60,001 nt of DNA, from assembly GCF_900182585.1 (NCBI RefSeq), contig NZ_FXTM01000010.1, forward strand, positions 1 through 60,001, read 5' to 3'. The DNA comes from Balnearium lithotrophicum. Its GTDB lineage: Bacteria > Aquificota > Aquificia > Desulfurobacteriales > Desulfurobacteriaceae. Position numbers and translations under genes: made by a program. Shown piece by piece: positions 17,230 through 60,001 of this stretch. Under the pieces are notes generated by a model. The model did no database searches. It was not told the DNA's origin and was given only the letters and a program-made list of their open reading frames with translations. Each line of letters opens with the position of its first letter. The stretch's first letter is position 1.

Positions 17230-17836
17230 TTAGCTTAGTTTATAGTAAAACCTAATTAACTCTAATTCGTGAGAGCTGAATTCATATAGTTCTCTAAAAC
17301 CTATTTCTATATAGTGTTTTACCAGCTTTTTGTATTCACCTTTCTTAACCACGTCTAAGATTACTATTTTTCCACCTACTATCTTTGAAGCCTCCTGTAT
17401 TTTTTCTAAAGCCACTTTTACAAGATAACCACTCAGTTTTTCAACTTTAGGAGCTTTTCCTACCTGACCTATGAGATAAACTGGAACTTGCTTATTATGT
17501 TCTCCTAAAGGAAATCCTTTAAGAAGGTCATCTAAGACTTTATTATAAGATTCACCTGCAGTTTCTTCTATGGCTTTAAGAACTTCCTCATCAAGAGAGA
17601 GCTTTTAGAGCTATCGTAAAATAGGCTACCACTTGGAGAGGTTCTTCTAAATACCAAAGATAAGTCCTTGCTAATCCCGTTAACTCAAACTTTATTGCTC
17701 TATTGTGAAGAAAACTTTCTATATCGTCATTTTGAGGGCATTTAAAGGTCTTTAAAAACTTCCTAACCTGAGTTTTAGAATAACGGACAAGAAGAGAGGA
17801 CAGAGAAATAAACCGTACATCTTTTAGAGAAATCAT
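17230..17836 (-). pseudogene. GNAT-type acetyltransferase toxin, frameshifted in a CT tract
   Basis: Two overlapping frames join to a GNAT fold of about 200 residues. The first (start 17836) runs from MISLKDVRFISL to AYFTIALKALS and stops at 17591. The second continues LDEEVLKAIEETAGE, then VPVYLIGQVGK, ALEKIQEASKIVGGK and ELIRFYYKL to 17230. The break sits at GCTCTCTCTT (minus strand; 17594-17602): one more CT would restore the frame. Related proteins are toxins of type II modules that acetylate charged tRNA or similar targets. The start overlaps the antitoxin candidate by 4 bp. As it stands the acetyl-CoA-binding half is out of frame, so activity is unlikely. Confidence 0.8.
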
Positions 17837-18024
17837 AGTTTTTCAAGGAGCTCTCCAAGTTTATCAATAGAAGCCTTACCAGCTTTTTCCTGTTTTCTAA
17901 GTAATTCCCTTTCCTCTGGTGTTAAGCTAACAGGAGCTCCAGAATCTTTCAAAGCCTCTAAAACCCTTAGAGCTTTTTCCTTGTCTTTTATCTCAAATCC
18001 TGCAAAGAAACTTATTGTTGCCAT
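17833..18024 (-). CDS. Antitoxin of GNAT-type module
   Basis: A 63-residue charged protein (MATISFFAGFEIKDKEK..., ending LGELLEKL) immediately upstream of the GNAT toxin, with ATGA overlap. Size, order and coupling match antitoxins of such pairs. The N-terminal part looks like a short strand plus helix suited to DNA binding, but no standard motif is clear. GAGAGG serves as ribosome binding site. A short inverted repeat (CAATT/AATTG at 18044-18057) upstream could be an operator. The IS481-type element sits only 60 bp upstream. Confidence 0.65.
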   Translation of the reverse strand: MATISFFAGFEIKDKEKALRVLEALKDSGAPVSLTPEERELLRKQEKAGKASIDKLGELLEKL

Positions 18025-18079
18025 TTTTGCCTCTCTAAATAATCAATTGCTTAATTGTAAAATATATTTAAGCCTACAA

Positions 18080-19135
18080 TCAGGTGTTCTCGTTCAATAC
18101 ATGGTGGACACCCTGGAGTTTTTTAATATATTCCTCAAACTTCTCTACTGGAGTCTTATAACCAAGACTTTGATGAGGCCTAACGAAGTTGTAAAAGCTT
18201 AGATACCTAAATAGCTTTCTGTTCATCTCATCAACTTTCGGCTCAGTTCCTTCTATCATCCACAATTCCTTCTCCACCGTCTGTATGAACCTTTCAACGT
18301 GTGCATTGGTCTTGGGAGACCTCGGATAGCTGAAGTAGTGTTCTATTCCTCTCTCCTTAAGGTAGTCCTCTAACTCTCCTATAAACTCACTTCCGTTGTC
18401 AGTTTGAACCTTTTCTATTTTGAAGGGAAGAAACTTTTCAAGTTCTTGGAAAAATCGTTTCCCACTCCTGCTGCTTTTTGTAGAATAAACCTTAGCAAAG
18501 CCTATTCTGGTGAATTTATCTATTGCTGTGAATTGGTAGAAGGTTTTTCCGCACCAGTAGAGGTATTTGACATCTATGAGGATTGTTCCGGGTTTATCGG
18601 CTCTAAGTCCTCTTCTGGTGCGGTTCTTTTTCCCTATTTGTTTTCTTTTCTTAAAGTTCCATGTGAGTTTTCTGGTTCTTTCTATCAGATTGTTTCTCTT
18701 TAAAACTCTGTAGATGGTTGAAGGAGAGACTTTTATGTTGAGGTATTTTTCTATAAAGACTGATATTTTTTCTTTGCTCCAGGTAGGGAATTTTTCCCTT
18801 ACTGTGATTATGAGGAATTCAAGTTCAGGTTCTATCTGAGGTTGTCTTACTCTGTGGGGTCTTTTGTTTCTGTCTTTGAGGCCTTCTAAACCGTACTTTT
18901 TGTATCTATTTTTCCACTTGTAGAAGGTGGTTGGACTTATTCCGAAGTATCTGCAGGTTAGTCTTGCATTTTGGTGTTTTTCGTAGTGTTGAATCCATTT
19001 AAGTCTTTTTCTCACGTTTGGGTCTTTTGTTAGGTCGAGTTTGGTTTTGATTTTTGTTCCTCTTTTGATTGTTTTTTTGAAGGGTGTATTTGATATGTGC
19101 AGGGATGCACCTTTGAATTTCTTTAATTGTTTCAT
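18080..19135 (-). CDS. IS481-family transposase (complete)
   Basis: A 351-residue DDE transposase. N-terminal helix-turn-helix regions (about 35-90, including CRYFGISPTTFYKW) are followed by an integrase core with catalytic Asp in TILIDVKYL, Asp in VQTDNGSEF and Glu in HVERF. The ATG at 19135 is chosen because AAGGAGGTG lies eight bases upstream. The stop codon TGA (18080-18082) lies outside the element, in flanking DNA. In copy 3 the frame also reads out of the element before stopping. The gene is intact. Confidence 0.93.
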   Translation of the reverse strand: MKQLKKFKGASLHISNTPFKKTIKRGTKIKTKLDLTKDPNVRKRLKWIQHYEKHQNARLTCRYFGISPTTFYKWKNRYKKYGLEGLKDRNKRPHRVRQPQIEPELEFLIITVREKFPTWSKEKISVFIEKYLNIKVSPSTIYRVLKRNNLIERTRKLTWNFKKRKQIGKKNRTRRGLRADKPGTILIDVKYLYWCGKTFYQFTAIDKFTRIGFAKVYSTKSSRSGKRFFQELEKFLPFKIEKVQTDNGSEFIGELEDYLKERGIEHYFSYPRSPKTNAHVERFIQTVEKELWMIEGTEPKVDEMNRKLFRYLSFYNFVRPHQSLGYKTPVEKFEEYIKKLQGVHHVLNENT

Positions 19136-19136
19136 T

Positions 19137-19187
19137 GGTGGACACCTCCTTTTGTTGGAGTTCAAATCTTATTTTAGGGTGTCCACC
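19137..19187 (-). promoter_or_regulatory. RNA hairpin that can hide the transposase ribosome binding site
   Basis: In minus-strand RNA, GGTGGACACC (from 19178-19187, in the terminal repeat) is perfectly complementary to GGTGTCCACC (from 19137-19146), which forms the 3' part of the AAGGAGGTG ribosome binding site. A 10-bp stem would block translation only in transcripts entering from outside. Copy 1 keeps both arms (345-354 and 304-313). Confidence 0.6.
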
Positions 19188-19198
19188 TTCTTTCTGAA
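19171..19198 (-). promoter_or_regulatory. Candidate transposase promoter inside the IS terminal repeat
   Basis: On the minus strand, TTCAGA (19193-19198, 4 of 6 matches) and TAAAAT (19171-19176, 5 of 6) are separated by 16 bases. A transcript from here would start downstream of the GGTGGACACC arm at 19178-19187 and so would not carry it. Confidence 0.4.
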
Positions 19199-19232
19199 CT
19201 TCAACAACAACACAAACATAGTTAAAATGAAA

Positions 19233-19499
19233 CTACAGAACGTCCTTTATCCTCTTTAAATAAGAGTGAATTTCGTCTATGGAAAATACTCCAGCCCAGC
19301 GATTTATCTCCCTTTCTCCATCAAGAATTAGAACGGTAGGTACTGAAAAGACAAGGAATTTGGTGGATACTTCTGGATTCTTTTGAATGTCAATAACTTC
19401 AAGAGGAATACTAAACTCTTTTGATATCCTCTCAATTTTGGGCTTAATGGATTGGCAAATACCACAGCTTTCAGAGGAAAAAAGTATGAGTCTTAACAC
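19233..19499 (-). CDS. Thioredoxin-like protein (CGIC active site)
   Basis: An 88-residue thioredoxin-fold protein. The active site SCGICQ lies at about 11-16 and the conserved cis-proline in SVPTVLIL near 55. It is short for a classical thioredoxin (about 105), lacking part of the N-terminal strand, like some archaeal or glutaredoxin-like forms. No signal peptide is present, so it acts in the cytosol. It starts at the stop of panE (1-bp overlap) and its own end is 27 bp from the IS481-type element. The redox partner is unknown. Confidence 0.82.
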   Translation of the reverse strand: MLRLILFSSESCGICQSIKPKIERISKEFSIPLEVIDIQKNPEVSTKFLVFSVPTVLILDGEREINRWAGVFSIDEIHSYLKRIKDVL

Positions 19500-20443
19500 T
19501 ATTTTTCTCCTTTTGAGGATTTTCTCTTCTCATCGAGTAGTTTCACCGTTCCATAAACACACCTGTTGTAGGGAACGGGAATACCCTTCTTCTCTGCTTT
19601 TCTAATGAGAGCTCCGGTTATCCCCTCAATCTCTATAGGTTTACCCTTTTCAAAGTCTAGGAGCATACTTGTTTTGTAGTTCATAAGGTCTGGTGTTGAT
19701 TTCAGGTAGTTTTCCATAGTCCTCAGCTTCAACTTAACACCGTAGGCCTCTGCAACCCTGTAGCACTCTAACATCAGATTTTTCAATATTTTGTACGTTT
19801 CTGGAAAGGAGAGCATCTCTCCGACAGTAGCTCTGGTTATTACAGAGTAAGGATTGAAAGCCACATTCCAGACCAATTTTTTCCAGAGAGTATAGTTAAT
19901 ATCTTTTGAAGCCCTTGCCTCTATTCCACACTTTTTCATCTCTTCAACTAATGTTTCAACCCTTTGTGATGGTTCTCCAGAGAGCTCTCCAATCTCTAAA
20001 AGTCCAGCTGCTTCGTGGACAACTACTCCGGGCTCAGAAACGTAAGTTCCGACAAATGCAGTTGCCCCTAAAACGTGTTCTTTCCCAAGGTACTTTGCCA
20101 AAATCTCCTCGTTCTCAATCCCATTCTGGACAGAAACAACTACAGTATCCTCCCTCAGCATTGGCTTTATCAGAGGAGCCACTTTTTCTGTATCGTACGA
20201 TTTAACGCAGACCAAAACGACATCTGCCTTTCCTGCCTCTTTTGGATTATCTGTAAACTTGACCTTTTCATTTCCCTTTACGTTAAATTCACCGTGTTTA
20301 AAGCTCTTAACAGTTAATCCTTTATCCTTCATTGCCCTTAAGTGTTCACCACGGGCTATAAAAACAACCTCGTGACCGCACCTTGCAAGCATTCCGCCGT
20401 AAAAACCACCAACTCCACCAGCTCCAAATATTACAAACTTCAT
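19499..20443 (-). CDS. panE: 2-dehydropantoate 2-reductase
   Basis: A 314-residue NADPH-dependent ketopantoate reductase of pantothenate and CoA synthesis. The N-terminal Rossmann motif GAGGVGGFYG is at about 7-16, and the C-terminal domain has the conserved lysine region LWKKLVWNVAFNP. Length is normal. Paralogues reduce other keto acids, so the substrate is inferred from the family. It is on the strand of the polysaccharide cluster, just after its last gene, but probably unrelated in function. Confidence 0.88.
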   Translation of the reverse strand: MKFVIFGAGGVGGFYGGMLARCGHEVVFIARGEHLRAMKDKGLTVKSFKHGEFNVKGNEKVKFTDNPKEAGKADVVLVCVKSYDTEKVAPLIKPMLREDTVVVSVQNGIENEEILAKYLGKEHVLGATAFVGTYVSEPGVVVHEAAGLLEIGELSGEPSQRVETLVEEMKKCGIEARASKDINYTLWKKLVWNVAFNPYSVITRATVGEMLSFPETYKILKNLMLECYRVAEAYGVKLKLRTMENYLKSTPDLMNYKTSMLLDFEKGKPIEIEGITGALIRKAEKKGIPVPYNRCVYGTVKLLDEKRKSSKGEK

Positions 20444-20459
20444 TGTAGTCTCCTCGACA

Positions 20460-21527
20460 TTAAACTTTTAAAAATTTCGGTATTTTGAACTTTACTATTC
20501 TGAAGTATAACCAGACATAGATAACTATAAAAACAACTGTAAACAACATAAGTAAGTACTTATTGTTCCAAAAGAGCAAAGCAGGAATAGTTGCTACCAT
20601 CTGAAGTAACCATGGGTAGAATGATGTAAAGGAATTTCTGATTCTTTCGTCTATGTTTTTAAATTTTGGTTTTACTATTCTTTTATAGACAAGCATATGG
20701 AAGTGTATAGCATCAGGTTCAAACGGATTCAAGTTACGAGCAAATTTCTTTCTCCATATGGAAAAGAGGGTTTCCCAGATTGGATATATTAACAGTAAAA
20801 GGGGGAACCAGGCAGAAACTTGAGGATGTCTGTTGACAAGTAGAATACCGTTTAATCCTGCAAAAAATCCTAACGTATATGCTCCGCCGTCTCCTAAGAA
20901 TATTTTTCCTAATGGAAAATTCCAGAGGAAAAAGCCTACTACAGCGGCAAAAATTACCAAATTAAAGTAGAGTAAAAATTGGTCTCCTAGTAGAAATGAA
21001 AGGTAAGCGTAGGATAGGAAGATAATAACACTAATACCTGAAGCAAGTCCGTTAAAACCATCTATAATATTCATAGCATTGGAAATTCCTGCAAGGGCAA
21101 AGGCAGAAAGAAACATTGAAAGAATAAATGAATCCTTTAAAATACTATCTAAAACTGGTATATCTAACCTAATAATATTAGCTCCTAAGAGAAAACAGGA
21201 TAGAACTCCCGATAGAAACCCCAAAGATAGGCGAACCCTTGGGCTTACCTTTTTAGTTATATCCTCAAGAGTTCCTCCTAAAAAGACCGGTACGGCAGAA
21301 ATGATTAAAAGGACAACCTCTTTTGTGAAACTCTTCTTAGCTATGTAGAATGCAACAGAAACTACAACCAACGAGAAGAATATAGCAATTCCTCCAGTCC
21401 TTGGAACGTCCCATGTATGGAACTTCTGAACTCCTTGAGAAATATCCATAAATTTTTCCTGTTTCATTCTTATGAGAATCCAACACATAATGAAAGTTAC
21501 TGAAAATGCCAGTATCAGGTATAACAT
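20460..21527 (-). CDS. WecA/MraY-family phospho-sugar transferase
   Basis: A 355-residue integral membrane protein with about ten helices. It transfers a sugar-1-phosphate from a UDP-sugar to undecaprenyl phosphate, starting glycan assembly. Family motifs are present: NAMNIIDGFNGLASG with the catalytic Asp, FLGDGGAYTLGF, and a cytoplasmic HFHMLVYKRI loop. It belongs to the WecA/WbpL-like branch rather than MraY, given its place at the end of a polysaccharide cluster. The cluster also encodes a PglC-type enzyme, so two chain starters coexist. The exact sugar is not evident. Confidence 0.87.
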   Translation of the reverse strand: MLYLILAFSVTFIMCWILIRMKQEKFMDISQGVQKFHTWDVPRTGGIAIFFSLVVVSVAFYIAKKSFTKEVVLLIISAVPVFLGGTLEDITKKVSPRVRLSLGFLSGVLSCFLLGANIIRLDIPVLDSILKDSFILSMFLSAFALAGISNAMNIIDGFNGLASGISVIIFLSYAYLSFLLGDQFLLYFNLVIFAAVVGFFLWNFPLGKIFLGDGGAYTLGFFAGLNGILLVNRHPQVSAWFPLLLLIYPIWETLFSIWRKKFARNLNPFEPDAIHFHMLVYKRIVKPKFKNIDERIRNSFTSFYPWLLQMVATIPALLFWNNKYLLMLFTVVFIVIYVWLYFRIVKFKIPKFLKV

Positions 21528-59828: not shown

Positions 59829-59850
59829 AATCAGTCCTTTATTCTGTCTT

Positions 59851-59869
59851 ATTGAGAATAATTCTCAAT
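59851..59869. promoter_or_regulatory. Perfect 19-bp palindrome, Fur/PerR-like operator
   Basis: ATTGAGAATAATTCTCAAT is a perfect 9-1-9 inverted repeat, the form and base content of Fur-family operators. It lies 22 bp before the rubredoxin start and just downstream of the predicted -10, so a bound repressor would block transcription. PerR is favoured over Fur by the oxygen-defence genes, but cannot be told from sequence. Confidence 0.75.
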
Positions 59870-59873
59870 ACTC

Positions 59874-59902
59874 AACTTAGTTCCCCATCTTTTTTCTGTC
59901 AA
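59874..59902 (-). promoter_or_regulatory. Promoter of rubredoxin-flavodiiron operon
   Basis: On the minus strand, perfect TTGACA (59897-59902), a 17-base spacer and TAAGTT (59874-59879; weak, 3 of 6 matches) lie between IS481-type copy 3 and the operator. The -35 is only 4 bp from the IS end, so the insertion left the promoter just intact. Confidence 0.55.
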
Positions 59903-60001
59903 CGCTTGTTCTCGTTCAATACATGGTGGACACCCTGGAGTTTTTTAATATATTCCTCAAACTTCTCTACTGGAGTCTTATAACCAAGACCTTGATGAGG
60001 C
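59899..60001 (-). CDS. IS481-family transposase, C-terminal part (runs off window)
   Basis: The frame encodes the last residues of the same transposase as at 18080-19135. It reads past the element end (59907) into flanking DNA and stops at TGA (59899-59901), giving a C-terminal ...LNENKR instead of ...LNENT in copy 2. The remainder lies beyond the window. Confidence 0.85.
   Translation of the reverse strand, partial: PHQGLGYKTPVEKFEEYIKKLQGVHHVLNENKR
59907..60001 (-). mobile_element. Left end of IS481-type element, copy 3
   Basis: It matches 18085-18179 of copy 2, with a difference near 59991 (ACC for ACT). The boundary is set by divergence of the two left flanks (AATCAGG versus CAACGCT). 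All three copies have the same orientation. Confidence 0.9.

Follow-up and report, generated by a model that had tools for sequence, protein, structure and literature searches.

IS481 is a very widespread family of insertion sequences (IS). In IS10 and IS50, which belong to another transposase family, transcripts entering from outside the element are reportedly subject to fold-back inhibition, a mechanism associated with the work of Davis, Simons and Kleckner in 1985, Krebs and Reznikoff in 1986, and Schulz and Reznikoff in 1991. In IS200 a 5' stem-loop of the transposase (tnpA) mRNA buries the ribosome binding site (PMC12594629), and in ISPpu9 of Pseudomonas putida transposase expression depends on secondary structure in the mRNA 5'-UTR (PMC8450116). 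For IS481 of Bordetella pertussis, the transposase is proposed to be held down by an antisense RNA that is transcribed from Pout and has 19 nt of complementarity (PMC11774165).

The IS481-family element considered here lies in a 60,001-nucleotide stretch of the genome of Balnearium lithotrophicum, a heat-loving bacterium (the window). Like IS10 and IS50, it has an inverted repeat between its end region and the transposase start, an inner arm that covers the start signals, a candidate promoter of its own starting between the arms, and a start site that is predicted to be buried only in longer transcripts. It differs from them in using the terminal-repeat core itself as its 5' arm, and its function is predicted. 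As described, the IS200 stem-loop forms part of the tnpA transcript made by the element itself, and of the 5' product of that transcript, whereas the candidate promoter here would exclude the first arm; ISPpu9 depends on two element-encoded small RNAs. The B. pertussis element shares the family and the proposal that RNA pairing holds the transposase down, but the RNA there is antisense and the available part of that account describes no start-site hairpin. The literature covered yielded no account of a hairpin of this kind in IS481; the main IS reviews lie outside that coverage, so its absence is not established. On the best reading, the IS481 element has its own form of the fold-back inhibition known from IS10 and IS50.

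The element and its transposase

The features of the locus are collected in Table 1. The transposase scores 231.2 bits against NCBIfam NF033577 (transpos_IS481; cut-off 224) and contains helix-turn-helix and integrase core (rve_3, rve) domains. The terminal inverted repeats, 28-29 bp, start with TGT and read TGTTGAAGTTCA...GGTGGACACC and TGTTCTCGTTCA...GGTGGACACC. Target duplications of 5 bp (e.g. gggaa, ctctt, gcttc, tttat) are present at several copies in a related genome, G008; none is visible flanking the window copy. An open reading frame start at a TTG (19165) was set aside as mechanical, the real start being the ATG.

Table 1. Coordinates of the element, its leader and its surroundings in the window
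Feature	Position	Strand	Remarks
IS481-family insertion sequence	18085-19206	minus	1122 bp; ends TGTTGAAG...CGAGAACA, from copy comparison
Transposase gene	18080-19135	minus	ATG start, 351 aa, single intact frame
Promoter-side terminal inverted repeat	19178-19206	minus	TGTTGAAGTTCAGAAAGAAGGTGGACACC
Other terminal inverted repeat	18085-18112	plus	TGTTCTCGTTCAATACATGGTGGACACC
Candidate -35, TTCAGA	19193-19198	minus	within terminal repeat, 5' of first arm; consensus match only
First hairpin arm, GGTGGACACC	19178-19187	minus	core of terminal repeat
Hairpin loop	19147-19177	minus	31 nt; diverged in relatives
Candidate -10, TAAAAT	19171-19176	minus	in hairpin loop; TA(A/C)AAT kept in 7 of 8 clade leaders
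Shine-Dalgarno (SD), GGAGG	19145-19149	minus	read from sequence; kept in relatives
Second hairpin arm, GGTGTCCACC	19137-19146	minus	overlaps SD end; ends 1 nt before ATG
Transposase start codon, ATG	19133-19135	minus	MKQLKKFKG/MKG start kept in relatives
Thioredoxin-like gene	19233-19499	minus	last of co-directional host gene row; row ends 26 bp before element
Copy 1, 5' part	1-373	minus	contig begins within copy; arms at 304-313 and 345-354
Copy 3, transposase 3' end only	59907-60001	minus	runs off contig; left-end core match at 59925

About 40 copies of the element are present in the source genome, many cut by contig ends. The stop codon of the window transposase (18080-18082) is host DNA, outside the element. 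All 16 full copies examined in the window's clade likewise have no stop of their own and read through the terminal repeat into host DNA, giving transposases of 351-410 aa with a different tail in each; in the G119 and G126 elements the stop lies within the element. Near copy 3, a palindrome, ATTGAGAATAATTCTCAAT (59850-59880), with the look of a Fur/PerR-type operator lies upstream of the minus-strand gene at the window end.

A predicted hairpin over the transposase start site

The transposase leader, read in the mRNA sense, is TGTTGAAGTTCAGAAAGAAGGTGGACACCCTAAAATAAGATTTGAACTCCAACAAAAGGAGGTGTCCACCAATG. The earlier note had claimed that a stretch of the terminal repeat is exactly complementary to one overlapping the ribosome binding site and that both arms are conserved in copy 1; both claims are borne out, with a 10-nt perfect stem that includes just the last two G residues of GGAGG, and with intact arms in copy 1. 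Both arms are also kept in nearly all genome copies for which the leader was read. On both strands of the window GGTGTCCACC occurs 6 times exactly and 7 times with at most one mismatch, versus 1.1 expected, and no shuffle reached 7. All six exact matches (304-313, 345-354, 18103, 19137, 19178 and 59925) are IS ends or this leader. A search of Rfam across 17500-19700 gave no match up to E = 0.1.

Two other structural readings were rejected: the stem as a terminator or attenuator, since no T run follows it, and a longer stem, TTGAAGTTCAGA/TTTGAACTCCAACA, as the main structure, which is best in one 37 C fold with host flank but is not conserved in relatives. In that longer stem, the outer half of the terminal repeat (19193-19204) can be taken up by part of the loop (19156-19169), a pairing that rivals the main hairpin at 37 C. 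The leader sequence AACTCCAACAAAAGGAGGTGTCCACCAATG (19133-19162) also resembles the 3' end of the transposase gene, AACTCCAGGGTGTCCACCATG (18100-18120), as if the inner arm derived from a copy of the other end.

In the proposed mechanism, a host-gene transcript entering from upstream would contain the first arm, which would pair with the second and mask the last part of the SD together with the bases between it and the start codon, keeping transposase production low. A transcript initiated at the candidate promoter of the element, a weak one, would have its 5' end in the loop; without the first arm, its start site would stay accessible.

The predicted cost of opening the SD is consistent with this scheme at high temperature. 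The temperature used, 70 C, is the growth optimum of Desulfurobacterium thermolithotrophum (PMC3368423). For the window copy preceded by 100 nt of host sequence, the 70 C cost of freeing the SD is 5.0 kcal/mol in the read-through RNA, against 2.5 in the predicted native RNA and 2.0 once the first arm is scrambled; the corresponding values for the stretch from the SD into the gene are 6.5, 3.3 and 3.0 kcal/mol. The first arm thereby adds about 3 kcal/mol to SD opening in the read-through RNA, a value that is approximate, as the folding parameters are extrapolated to 70 C. For relatives at 70 C, SD opening costs 4.4-7.6 kcal/mol in read-through RNA and 0.2-1.6 in native RNA. Folding with and without the terminal arm, which the earlier note had proposed as a check, thus separates the transcripts at growth temperature but not everywhere: when the window copy is folded from tip to gene at 37 C, there is no gain over the native RNA because of competing pairings, and a gain emerges once the temperature is raised or host flank is included.

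Conservation and covariation in relatives

In G008 the transposase is 78-79% identical to that of the window (33 protein matches, full and partial). The arms are letter-identical there and in single copies from other genera of the same family (G009, G010, G015 and G007), while the loop varies in length (28-31 nt) and in sequence; in a decayed G004 copy one stem pair is G-U. Such identity is weak evidence alone, because the first arm belongs to the element end and is under constraint there too. More distantly related elements, which come from two further families of the phylum and have transposases about 55% identical, show changes in both arms, and the inner arm is always at the SD. The stems are ACACTTACC/GGTAAGTGT in G054, ACTTACCTT/AAGGTAAGT in G055, ACCTACC/GGTAGGT in G119 and G124, ACCTGCC/GGCAGGT in G126, and GACACCTACC/GGTAGGTGTC in a sub-clade with short loops (G097, G108, G087, G089, G104 and G094); the changed arm pairs of these families include ACTTACC/GGTAAGT. 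The useful relatives came from whole-genome searches of the family and phylum, a scan of genome contigs having given five distant relatives only.

Across the 11 leaders of these other families, which are not independent samples, 91.8% of cells are paired, versus 28-56% in slid controls (at most 55.5%). Three pairs, in 5 cells, have changed on both sides, and none of 500 shuffles reached the covariation score. The window's clade was left out of these counts because MAFFT placed it four columns out of structural register; relative to the other families its arms are offset by an apparent 4-nt step (TACC/GGTA), with the pairing staying at the SD. The question raised in the earlier note, whether related elements conserve the pairing, can therefore be answered: it is kept, and it covaries.

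These patterns bear on the possibility that the arms are short complementary strings that persist through chance or common descent, with no function. Several elements lack such a hairpin, namely the IS481 members L130 (ISEc18-like), L131 (ISRme14), L136 and L141 and the distant G121, G123 and G125 elements, as functionless strings would allow. However, invariant arms around a diverging loop, double changes that keep the pairing, and different arms in distant branches make this explanation, already disfavoured, very hard to credit. That an RNA hairpin buries the transposase start site is well supported, and we regard it as highly probable.

RNA arm or DNA site

The inner arm could instead be a second binding site for the transposase, serving promoter autorepression or as an accessory end site, with the RNA pairing as a by-product. 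Within the window's clade the inner arm has exactly the sequence of the 10-bp core common to both terminal repeats, and it flanks the candidate promoter, as a second site might; since both ends are identical over the core there, comparing the arm with each end is silent in that clade. Elsewhere the comparison can be made, and in all seven informative elements the inner arm is closer to the promoter-side end than to the other end. The matches are 9/9 versus 8/9 in G054, 9/9 versus 6/9 in G055, 7/7 versus 5/7 in G119 and G126, and 7/7 versus 4/7 in G124, and in G097 and G087 the promoter-side end fits better by one base. In the first five, which span the two other families, the bases that the inner arm tracks are found just at the promoter-side end or beyond the shared repeat. 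In other phyla the arms are largely or wholly on the inner side of the terminal repeat. The position of the inner arm is, moreover, always at the SD. Judged from sequence, an inner arm that tracks promoter-side bases rather than the shared repeat speaks for pairing within the RNA and against a duplicated transposase site, which appears improbable.

The suggestion that the transposase-binding repeat core was reused as the RNA arm would accordingly fit the window's clade and possibly an Agrobacterium element, but it does not describe a general design; in elements elsewhere the arm lies at the repeat's inner edge or deeper inside the element.

The candidate promoter and the native transcript

Whether the hairpin acts as a switch specific to read-through (the IS10/IS50 logic) or as a constitutive brake (the IS200 logic) is decided by the start of the native transcript. 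A promoter scan finds TTCAGA-16-TAAAAT (19198-19171), with a predicted start at about 19160-19165. The earlier proposal of a promoter in the terminal repeat that starts after the first arm is thus matched by a candidate, though one of a quality expected about once by chance in a region of that size. In 7/8 leaders of the window's clade, TTA(A/C)AATAA or CTA(A/C)AATAA is found at a fixed place directly after the first arm. All 13 long-loop leaders have a -10-like hexamer in the loop, but shuffling a long loop yields an equally good hexamer in 15-68% of cases (85% with the decayed copy from G004), single matches being no better than in shuffled A+T-rich loops.

Under the constitutive alternative, the native transcript contains both arms and translation is always low, as in IS200, or the stem is an RNA thermometer. 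It has a precedent in the IS200 stem-loop, and it suits the relatives whose loops are short: no -10 was found between the arms in the six short-loop leaders (loops of 11-19 nt), where none fits, so that the native transcript probably carries the hairpin as well, and in Rhodococcus and Arthrobacter the loops are just ~6-8 nt. The tip in the short-loop sub-clade, TGTATAAG, resembles an extended -10. Because the loops of this sub-clade and of some actinobacterial elements are too short for a -10, a switch confined to read-through cannot be general. Against a constitutive hairpin in the window's clade stand the motif fixed after the first arm and the hexamers of the long loops, including that of the window's own candidate, and we consider this alternative unlikely, though less so than a second binding site.

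The better reading, and a somewhat probable one, is that transposase translation is inhibited by fold-back, specifically in read-through transcripts in the window's clade, as in IS10 and IS50. In its favour are the conserved and covarying pairing, the predicted burial of the SD, the operon upstream and the best promoter candidate, which would start between the arms. We infer that the native transcript starts between the arms, that the hairpin lowers translation, and that protection from read-through is its selected purpose.

Host surroundings of the copies

The co-directional host gene row upstream of the window copy spans 19233-21527, and a scan of 18900-19400 found no terminator-like site on the minus strand. 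With only 26 bp between the stop codon of this row and the promoter-side tip of the element, read-through is likely at this copy. Among 16 full copies examined, 7 have a co-directional open frame that ends within ~130 bp upstream, one of them apparently another IS copy. Three copies (L027, L037 and L061) have head-to-tail neighbours: each sits 5 bp behind a further copy or remnant, counted from the 3' end of the latter.

The downstream flanks (42 copies in G000 and 26 in G008) indicate that the insertion site lies 5 bp upstream of a -35 box. At positions 6-11 past the 3' end of the element, TTGACA is matched at 5-6 of 6 positions in 26/42 G000 and 16/26 G008 flanks. A -10-like hexamer follows 16-18 bp beyond this box, with mean scores of 4.05 and 4.38 of 6, respectively, versus 2.97 and 2.90 in shuffled flanks (sd 0.15-0.18). 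In these flanks the transposase gene and the host promoter point the same way, and several targets resemble tRNA promoters.

Predicted start-site hairpins across IS481

For a wider survey, the SD opening cost of each leader was compared with that of 100 shuffles of the sequence upstream of the SD (p<=0.05). The cost is high in 31/44 IS481 leaders: 12/13 from the hairpin-bearing clades, 8/13 from plasmids and 11/18 from viral contigs, the last two sets comprising elements above the family cut-off and two close relatives that were not scored. By comparison, it is high in 1/15 relatives below or apart from the IS481 cut-off group, in 4/41 ordinary genes of the window, and in none of three distant elements of the phylum. 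Striking stems are GAAGACCTCCGG/CCGGAGGTCTTC (L153), GAGAGTTACC/GGTAACTCTC (L150) and AGGAAGTACC/GGTACTTCCT (L032), and the Agrobacterium element has ATCCTTGT/ACAAGGAT, with an arm within the terminal repeat. Since the starts were partly picked by SD strength, and the plasmid and viral-contig sample is opportunistic rather than random and uncorrected for kinship, these predicted folds are evidence that start-site fold-backs are common across IS481, and do not give a rate.

The chances seem evenly balanced that the start-site fold-back is family-wide in IS481, with the arm pair repeatedly re-created as ends and leaders diverge, and that in some lineages the terminal repeat doubles as an RNA arm, tying DNA recognition to translational control. 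The hairpin also accounts for a third copy of the terminal-repeat core that would be puzzling without it. If the reading is true, a hairpin conserved through double changes would make protection from outside transcription a general design rule of IS481, no longer something peculiar to IS10 and IS50. It would also give a simple reason why high-copy elements sitting right behind host genes stay quiet.
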